This document shows, piece after piece, positions 18,383 through 35,836 of a stretch of 35,836 nt of DNA (its first letter is position 1; each line of letters begins with the position of its first letter). The stretch is from Methanobacteriota archaeon (GTDB lineage Archaea > Thermoplasmatota > Poseidoniia > Poseidoniales > Poseidoniaceae), in the NCBI GenBank assembly GCA_018701175.1, contig JABIWF010000038.1:1-35836 (forward strand). Direction: 5' to 3'. Both the position numbers and the translations under genes were made by a program. The notes beneath the pieces were generated by a model that had not been told where the DNA came from, searched no databases, and was given only the letters and a program-made list of their open reading frames with translations.

Positions 18383-18502
18383 CTTTTTTGATGCATTAAA
18401 GGCTCTAGCCGTCGGCTCGTGGGGTTGATAAGGGTCCGCTGATACCTAGCACTTGCGCCTCAAGGTTCAAGAGGTGTCGACCAAGACAAAGGATTGATGA
18501 CA

Positions 18503-19123
18503 ATGGAAGCACACCAGAATGTATTGAAGACCGGGACCAGCACAATAGGCATCACTTTCGATGGCGGTGTCGTCGTTGGAGCTGACCACAGAGCGACTAT
18601 GGGCCATTTCATCGCCAACAAGAGTGTGCAAAAACTCTTCAAAATCGGCGAAAACTTGGCACTTACTACTGCTGGTCTCGTTGGACACGCTCAATCACTT
18701 TCTCGAACACTCTCGGCGGAAGTTGCTCTATTCCAACTGCGCCGTCAACAACAGATGACCGTACGTGGCGCTGCAACACTGACCGCAAACATTCTGTCTG
18801 GACGCCCACACTGGGTTCAATTGTTGATTGTTGGCGTTGATGATGAAGGCGGACATGTCTACTCTATAGATTCTGCAGGTGGTTCAATTCCTGACTTGTA
18901 TTGTGCTACCGGTTCAGGTTCTCCTTACATGTACGGTGTCCTCGAAGACGGCTTCAGCGAAGGTATGTCACGAACCGATGCATTGAAACTCGCGGCCCGT
19001 GCCCTTCACGCATCGGGGCAGCGTGACGCCGCCTCCGGCAACGGCATGGATTTGGCGGTGATTACCGCAAAAGACGGCTACGTGGCCCTTTCCCAAGGCG
19101 AGATTGACAAACTTCTCTCCTGA
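18503..19123 (+). CDS. psmB: Proteasome beta subunit
   Basis: This is the catalytic subunit of the archaeal 20S proteasome. A short propeptide (MEAHQNVLKTG) is followed by the cleavage site Gly-Thr; the mature protein begins TSTIGITFDG. Counting from that Thr1, Asp17 (GADHRA), Lys33 (SVQK) and Ser129 (GSGSP) fall where the catalytic set is expected, so the subunit should be active. ATG 18503 is chosen because AAAGGA at 18488-18493 lies nine bases upstream; TTG 18494 and ATG 18497 are too close to it. The next gene is aCPSF1, a common archaeal neighbour, separated by a structured 83-base gap. Confidence 0.97.
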   Translation: MEAHQNVLKTGTSTIGITFDGGVVVGADHRATMGHFIANKSVQKLFKIGENLALTTAGLVGHAQSLSRTLSAEVALFQLRRQQQMTVRGAATLTANILSGRPHWVQLLIVGVDDEGGHVYSIDSAGGSIPDLYCATGSGSPYMYGVLEDGFSEGMSRTDALKLAARALHASGQRDAASGNGMDLAVITAKDGYVALSQGEIDKLLS

Positions 19124-19130
19124 TTCACAT

Positions 19131-19192
19131 TCCCGCAGCTCATCTGCGCTCCCTTTGGGAGAGTCTCTGCACATTGCTGTGCGAGCGCGGGA
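19131..19192 (+). ncRNA. Predicted three-way-junction RNA in the aCPSF1 leader
   Basis: The gap between psmB and aCPSF1 can fold into one compact structure. The closing helix pairs TCCCGC (19131-19136) with GCGGGA (19187-19192), then, after a single bulged A, GCTC (19138-19141) with GAGC (19183-19186). Inside are two hairpins: CTCCC/GGGAG with loop TTT (19149-19161) and GCACA/TGTGC with loop TTGC (19169-19182). The second abuts the closing helix. The ribosome-binding site GGTGA (19196-19200) and ATG (19207) follow at once. A competing helix, GCGCT (19146-19150) with AGCGC (19184-19188), is possible, so it might switch. The role is unknown; regulation or processing of the aCPSF1 message is inferred. 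Confidence 0.55.
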
Positions 19193-19206
19193 TACGGTGA
19201 ATTATA

Positions 19207-21111
19207 ATGCGTTTAACATTTAAAGAATTGAAAGACCAAGTGCAAAAGATTGTCCCAAAGGACATCCCCTACACTGTTGAACTCGAAGCTGGCAACATTG
19301 CTCTGGTAACTCCAGAACCCAACAGAATCCTTGCTACGGATGGACTTCTTGCTAAGCTCTCTCAAAAAGTAAAGAGAAAGATTGTTCTTCGACCTGATGC
19401 TTCAATCATGAAGTCTGAAGAAGAGGCTACCAAAATTGTCAAAGAAATCATTCCGGAAACTGCCGATATCAATCAAATCTACTTCGATGCGTGTTACCGT
19501 GAGATCACGGTCCAATGCCAAAATCCTGGAGAGGCAGTTGGTCGCAGAGGAATTAATTTGCAACAAATCCGCGACCAATCTGGATGGCTGGTCACCGTTG
19601 AGCGAACTCCTCCATTGGTTTCCAAGACGGTTCACGATATCCGTGGATATCGACATGCACATGCAGACGAACGGCGTAAGTTGCTCAAGGATTTCGGCTT
19701 GAATATCCATCGACCTCAACGTCCGGGTTCTGCATGGGCTCGCGTCACCGCCCTTGGTTCATACCGTGAAGTCGGAAGAGCCTGTCACTTCGTTACGACA
19801 AACGAATCTCGCGTGATGATCGACGTCGGCGTAAACATTGCATCGGATACAGACCCGATGCCGTACTTCACTGCTCCCGAAGCCTTACCGTTGGAAAAGC
19901 TGGATGCGGTTGTACTGACCCACTCTCACCTTGATCACGCTGGAATGCTGCCGGTATTGTTCAAGTATGGATACCGTGGTCCGGTTTACTGTACTCCTCC
20001 AACCCGTGATCTCATGCTCTTGCTCCAAACAGATTACCTCAAAGTTGGTGGTGCGGAAGGAAAGCGTGCACCCTATGACATGGAGGACATCCGTACCTGT
20101 ATGAAGCACGTCGTTGATGTTGACTGGGATGAAACTACAGACATTGCTCCAGACATCAAGCTCACCTTTTCCAATGCGGGTCACATTCTCGGCTCATCTG
20201 CAGTTCACCTCCACATTGGTGATGGAAAGCATAACATTGTGTTTAGTGGAGATCAAAAGTATGAGAAATCATGGTTGTTTGATGCTGCAAACACCCGTTT
20301 CCCTCGTGTCGAAACCCTCGTTATCGAATCCACATACGGTGCTTCAGGTGACTACCAACCATCTCGGCAAGAAGCCAACCAGGAATTGCAAGACATTGTT
20401 TCAAGGACAATTGCTCGTGGCGGTAAACTGATTTGTCCGGTTTTCGCCGTTGGTCGAAGCCAAGAAGTGATGATTGCGATTGATGAATTGTTCCGCTCTG
20501 GAAATGTGAAACCAGTGCCAGTTTGGTTGGATGGAATGATACAGGAAGCGACTGCAATACACGCTTCGCACCCCGACTATCTCACCAGCAGTTTGCGTAA
20601 GTCACTGCTCAAGGACGACGGAGAAAACCCATTCACAAGTGAATGGTTCCGTCCAGTCAAAGGCCGTGAATTGCGTGAAAGTATCATCATGGATAATTCT
20701 CCTTGTATTGTATTGGCAACCTCGGGAATGCTCAACGGCGGACCGGTTATGGAATACTTCAAGAATTGGGCTCACGAAGACCGAAACTCGTTGTGCTTTG
20801 TTGGGTATCAGGCTGAAGGAACACTTGGTCGTCGTTTGCAGAAAGGATTCGGTGAAGTCCCAATGATCATCAATGGCAAAACTGAAATCGTCAAGATTGG
20901 CTGTGAAATGGTTACCATTGATGGCTTTTCTGGGCACTCTGACCGTCGCCAATTACTTGATTTCGTCGACCAAATCTCTCCGACACCACGCAACATTATT
21001 TGCCATCACGGAGATTATCACAAATGCAATGAACTTGGGAAAACCCTGCGTGAACGATACAAGTGCAGAACATATGCACCTCAGAATCTCGAAACAGTTC
21101 GTTTGATGTGA
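19207..21111 (+). CDS. KH-domain beta-CASP ribonuclease aCPSF1 (FttA), archaeal transcription termination factor
   Basis: aCPSF1 is the archaeal homologue of CPSF73 and cleaves RNA 3' ends to end transcription. At 634 residues it has the usual length. The first 150 or so residues are two KH-type RNA-binding domains with the GRRG loop in EAVGRRGINLQQI. The metallo-beta-lactamase core carries THSHLDHAGM, GHILGSSAVHLH and the Asp in FSGDQKYEKSW. The beta-CASP part has ESTYG, CPVFAVGRSQE, TSGMLNGGPV, FSGHSDRRQL and the final HHGDYH, so all metal ligands appear present. GGTGA six bases before ATG 19207 fixes the start. It follows psmB and the three-way-junction RNA. Confidence 0.97.
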   Translation: MRLTFKELKDQVQKIVPKDIPYTVELEAGNIALVTPEPNRILATDGLLAKLSQKVKRKIVLRPDASIMKSEEEATKIVKEIIPETADINQIYFDACYREITVQCQNPGEAVGRRGINLQQIRDQSGWLVTVERTPPLVSKTVHDIRGYRHAHADERRKLLKDFGLNIHRPQRPGSAWARVTALGSYREVGRACHFVTTNESRVMIDVGVNIASDTDPMPYFTAPEALPLEKLDAVVLTHSHLDHAGMLPVLFKYGYRGPVYCTPPTRDLMLLLQTDYLKVGGAEGKRAPYDMEDIRTCMKHVVDVDWDETTDIAPDIKLTFSNAGHILGSSAVHLHIGDGKHNIVFSGDQKYEKSWLFDAANTRFPRVETLVIESTYGASGDYQPSRQEANQELQDIVSRTIARGGKLICPVFAVGRSQEVMIAIDELFRSGNVKPVPVWLDGMIQEATAIHASHPDYLTSSLRKSLLKDDGENPFTSEWFRPVKGRELRESIIMDNSPCIVLATSGMLNGGPVMEYFKNWAHEDRNSLCFVGYQAEGTLGRRLQKGFGEVPMIINGKTEIVKIGCEMVTIDGFSGHSDRRQLLDFVDQISPTPRNIICHHGDYHKCNELGKTLRERYKCRTYAPQNLETVRLM

Positions 21112-30972: not shown

Positions 30973-31094
30973 ACTGCGATAACTTTGGGCCAAGCCCTTG
31001 AGGCTTCCGTTTTCGCTTTCAACAAACAGGTACCTCTGCGGACTGAGATTCCTTGAGCCGAAGTCTTTTGACCTACGAGTCGCCTCGTCAAGTC

Positions 31095-34000
31095 ATGGTG
31101 TCGTCTCGTGCGAACGCGCTACGCTGCTCGGCAGTTGTAGTTTTGTTCTTGCTTTCAACGCTAATGCAAGGCTATTCACCGTCAAATAGCGACGTTTTTG
31201 AGACAAAGTCGCACGAAATTTCACCAGTTTCTACCCCGTTTGGGCAGAGTAAAACGTTGTCCATTGGTTCGTTCCCTGATGGTGCAAACACGAACACAAG
31301 GTTGAGTGTTGATGAAAGTGAGGCATTGAAAACACTCGAACTCCAAGTAGAGGCCGCCCGTTTGCCAACCTCCACAGGTTTCTCTTGGGCAGAGTCGAGC
31401 GATTTCTCGATGAACACCGTCTACGATGGAATGGATGTCAACGCGACCTCTCTAAGCTTGCTACCACAAGAGTGGAAATGGGATTTTGAGTCGGCGACTT
31501 TTGGTCCTGAATGGACTCAAGGTGGTACCTCAAATTGGAACTTGCAAACGAGCAATGTGATCACCGGCTCTCAATCAGCACAAGCAGGAAGTATAACTCA
31601 CAACCAAGAAAGTTCGCTGACCTTGGATGTCTCTGGAATCCCCTCAGCGAGTGGTTCTTTTCAATACGAAGTTTCGTCAGAATCGAGTTTCGACTATCTT
31701 AATTTCTGCATCGACAACACAGGATGCACACGATATTCAGGATACTCTGCTCAGTGGTCTGGGACGCAAAGTGGTACGCATACATTCAACATACCGGCTT
31801 CTGCTCAGACGTTAACTTGGAAATATACGAAAGACGGCAGTGTAGATCGCAATCAAGATACGACATGGATCGATGAAATCATTCTGTCGCCTACCGGTGG
31901 TTCAGGAAACGGTTTGGGGTATTGGGTTTCTGCTCCATTCGGACCTTCCTTACTCGGCCAAGGTGAAGACAGGTCTTTCGGACATCTGTACATGGACGCT
32001 TCCATTCCAACAGGAAGTATCTTCGAATGGCAACTCATCGACGCAGCAACCAATTCCATTGTCCCTGGATTTGAATCCATAAGCGAAACTTCGTTTGACC
32101 TTGGAATGATTGATTGGGAAACCTATCCAATGTTAAAAATGAGAATATACATGGAAACTTCTACTGGAAATTTACCGTCCATTCACGGTATTCATTTCGA
32201 AGGTAAAATAGTTGAAGACTTTTCAAACAATCCAACTGAAATCGGTTGGCAAATGCAAGGCGTGTCTTGGTCAAACGGTGAAGTCTCGGGTTCAGGTACA
32301 CTGAAATCTCCGGTGTACAATGTTCGTTCAGGTTTTGCTGGATTTGAATCAAATTCGGTTCTCTCACCGAGCGCTTCTGTACAATACACGCTCGATGGAG
32401 GGACCAATTGGGTCGATTTACTGCCAGGAAAACAATGGCTTACGAATCCTGCTTTTACCGTGCAATTCCGCGTAGCCTCTGCAGGCAGTCAGTGGGACAT
32501 AGATGTGTTTGAGGTGGAATTAATTCGCACAAGCATTCCTGATGGATTGCGTATCGATGTAGGCATGGATGGTGTGAGCGATTGGTCTCTTGAAGGGGAA
32601 GGAATTGGGCGTCTCGGTATTCAGGACCGGTTGAAAGACAATTCACTATGGCAAACCCGAGCCTCTTCACCCTCTGCTTCAGCGTCATTTAGTCTACTCC
32701 TGCCCGCATCGGGAGTGGAAGCGTTCGAATTCGGTGTAGCTTCACCGTTGCAAGCAATGAATTCACCTTTCTTAACCATGTCAATTGGTGGCCAAGATTT
32801 CCTCTCTACATCACTTCCTAATCTCCAATCATTGCAAGTGATCGAACTCTCATCGAATGAACTGGGATCACTCAACAGTGCACTTTCCCAAGCCTCTGCA
32901 GAATATGGAGTTGAGGGATTGCCGATGGTGGAAGTGACCGTTCGCCTCGGCTCTTCAACGACACCAACCGATGTCCTACTTGGCGGGATATTTGCTCCAT
33001 ACGACTCCGCTCTTGCGCTGCAGTTTGGCCCGAGTGATGCCGTGATTATCGCTTTGAATAATGCGCTTCAGTCGGTCATTCCAGTGGGTGGTAGCAAAGA
33101 ATTACCTCTTCCAATCCGTATGACCTCCTCGGGTGCGGTCCATATGGTCGTTGTGCAGCAAACGACACAAGCTTCGATTGAACCAATCTCGATGTCCGTA
33201 TCCAATGTGAGCGATACATTCACGCCTTCAACCGACTGGATCGAGGTTGCAAGCACCTTCGATTTCTCGAATTTAGGCGTTTCGAATGCTGAATCCTATG
33301 TCAAGTCAAACGGGTGGTCCGTAGCATTGCACCTTACCGGTGTGAACTCCCAATCAGAAACCCGTTGCCCCATGCTCTCACTACCAATGTCCGGTGCGGC
33401 GGTCAACAGTTGCCTGACACAAGGCAACTCAATGATCTGGTCTTCAGGAGGCTCCGATGGCTCAATTCGTATGGTTGAGAGTGGTTCATTGCTCCAAGTC
33501 AACCATCGCTTCCAATTCTCTGAACTCTGGGACGATGAAGAATCTCTAACCGTTTCAGTGAATATGCTTTCTCCATCCGGGCCAATGCTACCGGCAAACA
33601 TCAATTTCGGCCTTGGTTCTTCAAACGGCGTCGAGAATGATGTTGAAGTCAAGGATTGGAGCATTGTCTATGACAATGACGTCCGTTCAACGCATGATTC
33701 TCCATACCTTCACCCTGGAGAAAGCGTCAATGTTGAGGTGCAACTTGGATTTGAAAATGTACCATCGGATACGACTCCACGCTCCGGTTCAACGCTTGTT
33801 CGCTTCATCGCTGACGGTGTTGAAATTCAGTCGACTTCAGTCTTTTCAGATGGCATTGCATCCTTCCCATGGGTTATTCCTTCGAACAAGGAATCCATCG
33901 AACTCGAGGTCGATGTCATTCCACTTGTAAATCAAAATATCCTTTTCGCTGTCCCAAACAAGGCAACTTACGGTTTTGATACCGTCGATCCTGAACTCTT

Positions 34001-35836
34001 GGGTGTTAGCATCTCGGAGTTCGACCATGTCGAAGCCAACCCCGCTACTTCAATCGAATTTGTAATTGCGGACCGGCCAATGCTCCCATCACACGCTAAT
34101 GCTCACATGTGGCGTTCATGGTCAGATGACTCGAATCTTGATGGAATCATGCAACGCGATGAAGTCCAAGTTCGGTCTCTCTTCGTTCCTGAGGACAGAA
34201 CCCCTCTTCAGGGCACATATGTGCTTGAGCTCGATACTTCTGAAGCATATTCTGGTTCTTACTTCGTGGGATGGCTTGATGTCGCCGATTCTGCAGGCAA
34301 TGTGATGCTTAACTCAGGTTCTTTTGACTCTCCACTGTTCAATGTTCAAGTCAACAACGACGGTTCACCTCAACTCGGCACTTCATCTGCATACTGGGGT
34401 CACGGAGACTCGGTATGGATTCACCCCGGTGAATCAAACATCATGCATCTTCCTTTGCTCGATTTGAATGGTATCTCTGATATTACTCACATTGAAGTCA
34501 ATTTAGCGGGTAACCAAATTGACCCTGTTGAATTCAACTGGAATTCTGAGAACCAGAGATGTACCAGTCTCAATATATTCCTTGACATTGAATCATGCAC
34601 ATTCCAACCTGCGGATTCTGGCAGTCTGTTTTCTTCGGAAGGCATGTTCATTGTCAATTTCTCACTCGAATGGGGCTTTGACCCGGATGTGAGTCTGTTG
34701 CGCATTCCCAATGTGTTAGTCCACGATTCGCAAGGACAATCAAACTCTATTTCCGTACCGGATTTGAGTTGGAGTTTTTCCGGTGAGGTTGCTGTGAATT
34801 CACAAACCCTTGAATTCTCTTTGGACGGTTCTGAGGTGGAAACCCTTGGGACGTGGGTAAAACCACGCGCAGACATTGGTGTGAATGGCGAACTCACTTG
34901 GCATCGATCCCATAGGGCAGTCATCCAATCGATGGAATTGGATATCGAAATTGGAGAAAATGAACTTCTCGCCGACAGTGTTAACGGGAGTTTTTCTGGT
35001 ATTCTAACGGCTCCTTTGGAACCTGGATCTTACGCTGTATTCACATCGCTTCATAACCCTCCAAATGGAGCAATTGACCGAACTCCGACAACCCCACCTG
35101 CTTGGTTCATTGTCGATAATAAGGCTCCATTAATCGTAGGAATACCTTCTCCGGTGAATGAAATTGTGCTTGTCGAGGACACATGGAGTTCTCTTGACAT
35201 TGAAATACTCATCTCGGAGGGCGACCGGCTCGATGAAAGTTCATTGATACTGCATTGGGCAGTTCATCCAGAAGGCGTTGGTATCTCGAGTGATTCGGTC
35301 GTGAACGGTAGCGAGCCTCTCGCGATTGTCGGAGGACGTGCCTTTGGCGATGCAATACCATGCGCAACGAACTTGAATCTTGATTCAATGCTGACACCAT
35401 CGATGCGCAACGATGCTCTCGAGATGAGAATTTGGGTGAGTGGATTTGATCAGGCCGGTCATGAAATCAGTACATTGTCCAATGATATTGATTCACCACT
35501 CTCCGTTTGGGTTCTTGAGCAACGCATTGCAGAGTACTCATTCACCGAACCAGTAATGAAACCCAGTAAGCAGATTGCTGCGGGTGAAACAGTTGCTCTT
35601 GCTGTAGAAATTTCAAACTCAGGCCTTGCAGATGGTGAAGCCCAAATGTTCGTCGAACTGGTTGAAAGTAACGGTGCTCGAACACGAATTGATGCTCGTA
35701 GCATCGAAGTTGAGTCTGGGGGAACTTATGTTTACACGAAGGACTGGATTCCTGCACGAGAGGGTACAATGTGGATTGAGTTCCAAATTATTAACGGACC
35801 AAACGTTCAAACCAACACGGTCTACATTGACGAGGC
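31095..35836 (+). CDS. Giant secreted surface protein, 3' end outside window
   Basis: A single frame from ATG 31095 runs without a stop to the window end, at least 1,580 codons. Residues 1 to about 27 are a signal peptide (NALRCSAVVVLFLLSTLMQG). Around residues 126-268 there is a jelly-roll or MAM-like domain (WKWDFESATFGPEWTQGG ... WKYTKDGSVDRNQDTTWIDE), related to carbohydrate-binding sandwiches. The long middle is Ser, Thr, Asn, Asp and Gly rich and beta-like, with few cysteines. At about 1475-1580 a CARDB/immunoglobulin-like unit is visible (ALAVEISNSGLADGEAQMFV). It is most likely an adhesin or cell-envelope protein; no catalytic site was found. The open frame and residue make-up argue against pseudogene status. 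Confidence 0.85.
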   Translation, partial: MVSSRANALRCSAVVVLFLLSTLMQGYSPSNSDVFETKSHEISPVSTPFGQSKTLSIGSFPDGANTNTRLSVDESEALKTLELQVEAARLPTSTGFSWAESSDFSMNTVYDGMDVNATSLSLLPQEWKWDFESATFGPEWTQGGTSNWNLQTSNVITGSQSAQAGSITHNQESSLTLDVSGIPSASGSFQYEVSSESSFDYLNFCIDNTGCTRYSGYSAQWSGTQSGTHTFNIPASAQTLTWKYTKDGSVDRNQDTTWIDEIILSPTGGSGNGLGYWVSAPFGPSLLGQGEDRSFGHLYMDASIPTGSIFEWQLIDAATNSIVPGFESISETSFDLGMIDWETYPMLKMRIYMETSTGNLPSIHGIHFEGKIVEDFSNNPTEIGWQMQGVSWSNGEVSGSGTLKSPVYNVRSGFAGFESNSVLSPSASVQYTLDGGTNWVDLLPGKQWLTNPAFTVQFRVASAGSQWDIDVFEVELIRTSIPDGLRIDVGMDGVSDWSLEGEGIGRLGIQDRLKDNSLWQTRASSPSASASFSLLLPASGVEAFEFGVASPLQAMNSPFLTMSIGGQDFLSTSLPNLQSLQVIELSSNELGSLNSALSQASAEYGVEGLPMVEVTVRLGSSTTPTDVLLGGIFAPYDSALALQFGPSDAVIIALNNALQSVIPVGGSKELPLPIRMTSSGAVHMVVVQQTTQASIEPISMSVSNVSDTFTPSTDWIEVASTFDFSNLGVSNAESYVKSNGWSVALHLTGVNSQSETRCPMLSLPMSGAAVNSCLTQGNSMIWSSGGSDGSIRMVESGSLLQVNHRFQFSELWDDEESLTVSVNMLSPSGPMLPANINFGLGSSNGVENDVEVKDWSIVYDNDVRSTHDSPYLHPGESVNVEVQLGFENVPSDTTPRSGSTLVRFIADGVEIQSTSVFSDGIASFPWVIPSNKESIELEVDVIPLVNQNILFAVPNKATYGFDTVDPELLGVSISEFDHVEANPATSIEFVIADRPMLPSHANAHMWRSWSDDSNLDGIMQRDEVQVRSLFVPEDRTPLQGTYVLELDTSEAYSGSYFVGWLDVADSAGNVMLNSGSFDSPLFNVQVNNDGSPQLGTSSAYWGHGDSVWIHPGESNIMHLPLLDLNGISDITHIEVNLAGNQIDPVEFNWNSENQRCTSLNIFLDIESCTFQPADSGSLFSSEGMFIVNFSLEWGFDPDVSLLRIPNVLVHDSQGQSNSISVPDLSWSFSGEVAVNSQTLEFSLDGSEVETLGTWVKPRADIGVNGELTWHRSHRAVIQSMELDIEIGENELLADSVNGSFSGILTAPLEPGSYAVFTSLHNPPNGAIDRTPTTPPAWFIVDNKAPLIVGIPSPVNEIVLVEDTWSSLDIEILISEGDRLDESSLILHWAVHPEGVGISSDSVVNGSEPLAIVGGRAFGDAIPCATNLNLDSMLTPSMRNDALEMRIWVSGFDQAGHEISTLSNDIDSPLSVWVLEQRIAEYSFTEPVMKPSKQIAAGETVALAVEISNSGLADGEAQMFVELVESNGARTRIDARSIEVESGGTYVYTKDWIPAREGTMWIEFQIINGPNVQTNTVYIDE

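Follow-up and report, generated by a model that had tools for sequence, protein, structure and literature searches.

What lies in the gap between psmB and aCPSF1 in this archaeal genome, and does it act on the gene that follows? The window analysed here, that is, the whole 35,836-nucleotide stretch of contig JABIWF010000038.1, carries both genes on its + strand: psmB, encoding the proteasome beta subunit, at 18497-19123 (start at 18497 or 18503, stop codon TGA at 19121-19123; TIGR03634 score of 213.5 bits, slightly below the 224-bit cut-off), and aCPSF1 (FttA), encoding a beta-CASP ribonuclease and termination factor, at 19207-21111 (TIGR03675 score of 829 bits, cut-off 580). In Methanococcus, aCPSF1 is essential, cleaves RNA and drives termination at U-tracts, also within operons (PMC10450193). 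Based on the gene order and the lack of any terminator-like site on the + strand of the window, we infer that psmB and aCPSF1 share one message and that the gap is carried on it. The same strand also holds, at 31053-35834, an open frame of at least 1594 amino acids that runs off the window end and begins with a hydrophobic N-terminal stretch, suggestive of a giant protein that is secreted or displayed at the surface.

The original prediction placed a compact branched RNA in the gap and offered three roles for this leader: a self-regulating target of aCPSF1, an internal processing site between the two messages, or a separate small RNA. Of the roles considered, a cis-acting leader fits our results best. 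The RNA fold itself is almost certainly real and conserved, its regulation of aCPSF1 in cis is probable, and the more specific model, in which the gap would be a cis-regulatory leader of aCPSF1 that refolds and is particular to one archaeal order, is the one we favor on balance.

We delimit the leader RNA as the whole gap, 19124-19206 on the + strand, based on its folding z-score, its outlier position in the window and the covariation described below. The 62-base fold predicted for 19131-19192, in which ten closing pairs, interrupted by one bulged A, enclose two hairpins of five pairs each, was reproduced at -30 kcal/mol (z -2.76; 3 of 200 dinucleotide shuffles were equally good), whereas the whole gap reached -35.7 kcal/mol (z -4.0) and, together with the psmB stop codon, -39.1 kcal/mol (z -4.8). 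That is, both the predicted core and the full gap fold better than shuffled sequences, and within the window's set of 23 spacers (46-284 nt) the gap also stands apart, with a z of -4.3 vs. -1.6 for the next spacer. The closing stem, P1, is formed by a 5' strand at 19131-19141 (with A19137 bulged) and a 3' strand at 19183-19192, pairing 19131-19136 with 19187-19192 and 19138-19141 with 19183-19186. Enclosed by it are hairpin H2 at 19149-19161 (CUCCC/GGGAG, 5 bp, UUU loop), which is lengthened by two more pairs (19146-19147/19163-19164), and hairpin H3 at 19169-19182 (GCACA/UGUGC, 5 bp). The Shine-Dalgarno sequence of aCPSF1, GGTGA at 19196-19200, is invariant in the window's clade and is separated from the closing helix by three bases rather than the four originally counted. 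None of the Rfam 15 covariance models matched the leader at gathering score, and a permissive Rfam search of 18950-19400 gave one chance-level match, located outside the leader.

How widely the structured gap occurs was assessed on 208 loci with an aCPSF1 start, collected by protein searches and covering both families of the order Poseidoniales (marine group II). In 206 of them psmB lies directly upstream of aCPSF1, and the remaining two contigs stop 60 bases before aCPSF1. The 206 gaps are 55-110 nt long, comprise 155 distinct sequences, and always place the leader at the same position, after psmB and just ahead of the aCPSF1 ribosome-binding site. A covariance model built from the window's clade alone recovered leaders from other clades in the correct place and on the correct strand (E-values of 1e-10 to 7e-3 for the better matches, with no false match below 0.7). 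Outside the order, another family of the same class keeps the gene pair with a gap of only about 25-35 nt, while in 20 genomes from other parts of the phylum psmB also lies upstream, with gaps ranging from a few bases to >100 nt; 12 of the outgroup gaps of at least 45 nt have a mean fold z of -0.1 (one below -2) vs. -2.0 for 28 leader clusters of the order. Because the gaps of the sister family and the outgroups are short or mostly unstructured, the structured gap is, as judged from the genomes compared, a feature of the order Poseidoniales that was presumably either gained there or lost outside. Seven loci of the order (L107 and L145 of genus g13; L188, L192, L194, L193 and L195 of family f2) have short leaders of 55-66 nt that match the common scheme poorly, with a reduced or replaced structure. 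Separately, an identical gap occurs on two contigs of assembly TMED132 (L054, NHGH02000023.1, and L055, NHGH02000033.1), probably an assembly duplicate.

This distribution also bears on the possibility that the gap contains, by chance, a separate small RNA, a transcription terminator or a mobile palindromic repeat. Compact intergenic folds with strong hairpins are what such elements look like, but the structure always sits immediately before the aCPSF1 ribosome-binding site, belongs to no Rfam family, is followed by no U-run in the window gap, and was found in no second copy in 26 genomes when covariance-model scoring was applied to the 150 top-ranking first-look candidates of each genome; the + strand likewise offers no terminator-like site. 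The element was also considered as a transcript of its own, and the scans returned no promoter or terminator sites for it (the promoter scan covering the bacterial type only). We thus regard these readings as highly improbable, and the small-RNA role suggested originally is set aside in view of the lack of further copies and the invariant position between both genes.

The outcomes named originally as refuting the proposal were looked for and did not occur: in related genomes the fold turned out to be conserved and its arms to covary, and it did better than shuffled sequences. Consensus folds of five large clades, compared with column-shuffled alignments, gave z-scores of -4.6, -6.3, -6.0, -6.0 and -5.7, with none of 200 shuffles as good; small sets, of three to five sequences each, gave weaker values (z -1.6 to -5.2). 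As an alignment-free test, the duplex formed by the two arms (5' and 3') of one leader was compared in energy with duplexes whose arms had been swapped between leaders. Own arms paired better, with z-scores of -5.7, -6.7 and -8.1 for 23, 37 and 67 representatives, respectively (0 of 5000 permutations; the significance is by between-clade permutation, not a tree-aware null), vs. +1.7 to -2.2 for control stretches in the psmB and aCPSF1 coding sequences. The arm covariation is located in the inner closing stem and is absent from the outermost arm. At the level of single clades, clade G has eight pairs with changes on both sides (0 of 500 shuffles), clade H has a covariation score for the long-range fold above all shuffles but a count of both-sided pairs that is not, and A3 was left out of pair counting because two of its subgroups were misaligned there. 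In the clade to which the window belongs, P1 shows little variation, H3 is nearly invariant and H2 changes on both sides; hence, support for P1 rests on the wider order. G-U pairs, which on the opposite strand would read as A-C mismatches, are frequent among the kept pairs of the sense strand; the conserved molecule is thus probably the sense RNA. The bases that recur from clade to clade are mainly the closing UCCC/GGG; loops differ between clades, and some are kept within them. Clade G (L093-L101, L132-L170) strongly keeps a UUAG loop in the local hairpin H1 (below) and a stretch, AUGUCAAUC, that are absent elsewhere and possibly represent a clade-specific binding site.

A helix competing with the closing stem was part of the original prediction, and a competing fold does exist, although it is not the one that had been named. 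GCGCU/AGCGC can form only in the window's closest relatives, outside of which GCACU stands at this place, and it was rejected as the conserved competitor. The conserved competitor is instead a local hairpin, H1, that pairs GCAG at 19135-19138 with CUGC at 19144-19147 on the + strand and excludes P1. H1 is formable directly after the closing-stem UCCC in most representatives, and its versions elsewhere include GCGGC/GCCGC, GCAAC/GUUGC, GCGAC/GUCGC, UGCGGA/UCCGCA, UCACGGA/UCCGUGA and CGGCG/CGCCG, among others. In fixed windows, covariation between the two H1 strands reached z-scores of -3.4 to -7.2, and the H1 partner pairs with a mean of -5.7 kcal/mol vs. -1.5 kcal/mol for shuffled downstream sequence (Fisher p 1e-13, 33 representatives). 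The 5' strand of H1 covaries with the 3' arm of P1 as well (z -4.4 to -5.2 in the strict version without the invariant CCC; the composition control was near zero), so that one strand has two kept, mutually exclusive partners; these significances, too, come from between-clade permutation rather than a tree-aware null. In other words, P1 and H1 compete in silico for one strand, with both pairings kept by compensatory changes. In clade H, H1 is always pairable, yet no both-sided changes were found in it. An exchange of the H1 3' strand with the middle hairpin was also evaluated and rejected; wider windows did give signal, but strict segments gave no support. What stands of the original regulatory idea is its anatomy, a leader with a competing fold, built on a different conserved helix.

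The relative stability of the two folds raises the question of whether H1 matters at all. The P1 fold is the more stable one in 25 of 32 representatives (by a median of 4.1 kcal/mol), with the two folds lying within 4 kcal/mol of each other in 16 of the 32; in the window P1 is favored by 7 kcal/mol, and switching there would thus need help. It is conceivable that the structure is passive, a spacer that protects or separates the coding regions or a fixed damping of aCPSF1 without switching, and that H1 is a folding intermediate. The greater stability of P1 agrees with such a role, as does the low sequence conservation outside the stems, which may hint that a ligand-binding core, as in a riboswitch, is lacking. 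Against it, the partner strand of H1 is kept by compensatory changes though P1 has no need of it, and we consider a passive structure rather unlikely.

If the leader refolds, which step of expression would it control? Next to the core, the window and some relatives, several distant ones among them, can form an outer helix between UGAUUCAC at 19121-19128, which consists of the psmB stop codon plus 5 nt, and GUGAAUUA at 19197-19204, which covers most of the Shine-Dalgarno sequence (both on the + strand, based on the fold). The pairing probability of the Shine-Dalgarno sequence in the window is 0.80 compared to a mean of 0.57 for other genes, 2 of 19 of which are at least as high. Across clades, the outer arm showed no covariation beyond what the conserved Shine-Dalgarno sequence allows. 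Universal sequestration by this arm was rejected since, taken over all leaders, the pairing did not clearly exceed that of shuffled or permuted arms; it is clear in the window and in L032, L015, L058, L063 and L160, and falls below shuffles in some small clades. Toggling of the Shine-Dalgarno sequence by P1/H1 refolding was rejected as well. Its pairing is 0.68 vs. 0.70 in the two folds, that is, neither fold alone exposes the signal as an attenuator-type arrangement would have it. Translation initiation may be the step controlled, a tentative assignment that we would call likely at most because the Shine-Dalgarno pairing is not general, does not covary, is the same in both folds and is not unique to this gene.

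The same observations bear on the possibility that the two genes are coupled through translation. Ribosomes translating psmB would, in such a scheme, melt the outer helix together with the P1 5' strand, H1 would form, and the aCPSF1 ribosome-binding site would be freed, so that aCPSF1 would be made only when psmB is translated. In line with this, the psmB stop codon lies inside the outer helix in the window, and the structured core of the leaders begins at a median distance of 11 nt from the stop codon, about where the edge of a terminating ribosome lies. On the other hand, the stop-to-core distance ranges from 4 to 21 nt, the outer arm is without covariation, and the Shine-Dalgarno sequence is paired to the same extent in either fold in silico, and we view coupling of this type as rather improbable. 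A direct variant, reinitiation by the ribosome that has just finished psmB, is unlikely because gaps of 55-110 nt are too long for it: in Haloferax and E. coli, a distance of about 20 nt between the genes is enough to nearly abolish termination-reinitiation (PMC10666635).

Alternatively, the leader might serve feedback by the protein whose gene it precedes. Abundant aCPSF1 would bind or cleave its own leader, or the pyrimidine stretch after psmB, and thereby end or cut transcripts, with the two folds showing or hiding the site. The activities known for the protein in Methanococcus (PMC10450193, above) would suit this, and the first 15 nt downstream of psmB (19124-19138 in the window) are pyrimidine-rich, with a pyrimidine fraction of 0.66 in the order and 0.68 in the outgroups that lack the structure vs. 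0.54 after other genes of the window. This stretch may represent an aCPSF1-type signal of older origin for processing or termination. An internal processing site between psmB and aCPSF1, as the original prediction had offered, is possible. Some relatives also carry U-runs after the psmB stop, but the window has neither a U-tract nor a terminator-like site on the + strand, and our literature search found no report of aCPSF1 acting on its own message. We consider feedback of this type unlikely. Its more elaborate form, an autogenous two-state switch in which aCPSF1 would bind or cut one of the two kept folds and thus tie termination capacity to proteasome expression, is doubtful as well.

We favor, therefore, the refolding leader introduced above and envision that it would work as follows. 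During RNA synthesis H1 would form first, to be replaced by P1 once the 3' arm has been made. The resulting stable branched structure would stand beside the ribosome-binding site, with the outward continuation of P1 covering or crowding the Shine-Dalgarno sequence, and would lower translation of aCPSF1 relative to psmB. The balance between the two folds could be shifted by a signal such as the ribosome finishing psmB, a protein, or aCPSF1 itself. If so, the leader would be a concrete control point for aCPSF1 in these abundant marine archaea, and its >150 distinct natural variants allow a pair of mutually exclusive helices within a single RNA to be traced through evolution.

As predicted from sequence comparison, the leader is a new RNA family of the cis-acting structured leader kind, one that is unusual both among archaea and ahead of a gene such as aCPSF1. 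The pairing of psmB with aCPSF1 is itself a known old association of archaeal genes, according to a passage of PMC3095777 that cites Koonin et al. 2001, and the same gene order was present in every genome that we compared from the phylum, whereas the conserved structured gap was seen in this order only. Another structured RNA of the same archaeal group, the Tan1 ncRNA of marine group II, is set apart from the aCPSF1 leader by its description as a 229-nt, abundant RNA (PMC5069720). The analogy to bacterial RNase leaders is that a key ribonuclease may have its synthesis limited via its own message. The 5' UTR of rne, the RNase E gene, is used in autoregulation, and so is the leader of the RNase Y gene of Bacillus subtilis (PMC10303841). 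The aCPSF1 leader differs in being archaeal, in lying between two genes rather than at the 5' end, and in its unrelated sequence and fold, and action of aCPSF1 on it is putative. Attenuators of the trp and erm type also rely on mutually exclusive helices, and they share with the aCPSF1 leader a strand that has two alternative partners, but no leader peptide or terminator hairpin was seen in the latter. The leaders of the archaeal ribosomal proteins eL15, S15 and L4 are lineage-restricted, structured and predicted from covariation (PMC7247131). Like them, the aCPSF1 leader is a lineage-restricted, covarying element beside the gene that it probably controls; unlike them, it precedes a nuclease gene in an old gene pair and has two mutually exclusive, conserved pairings.
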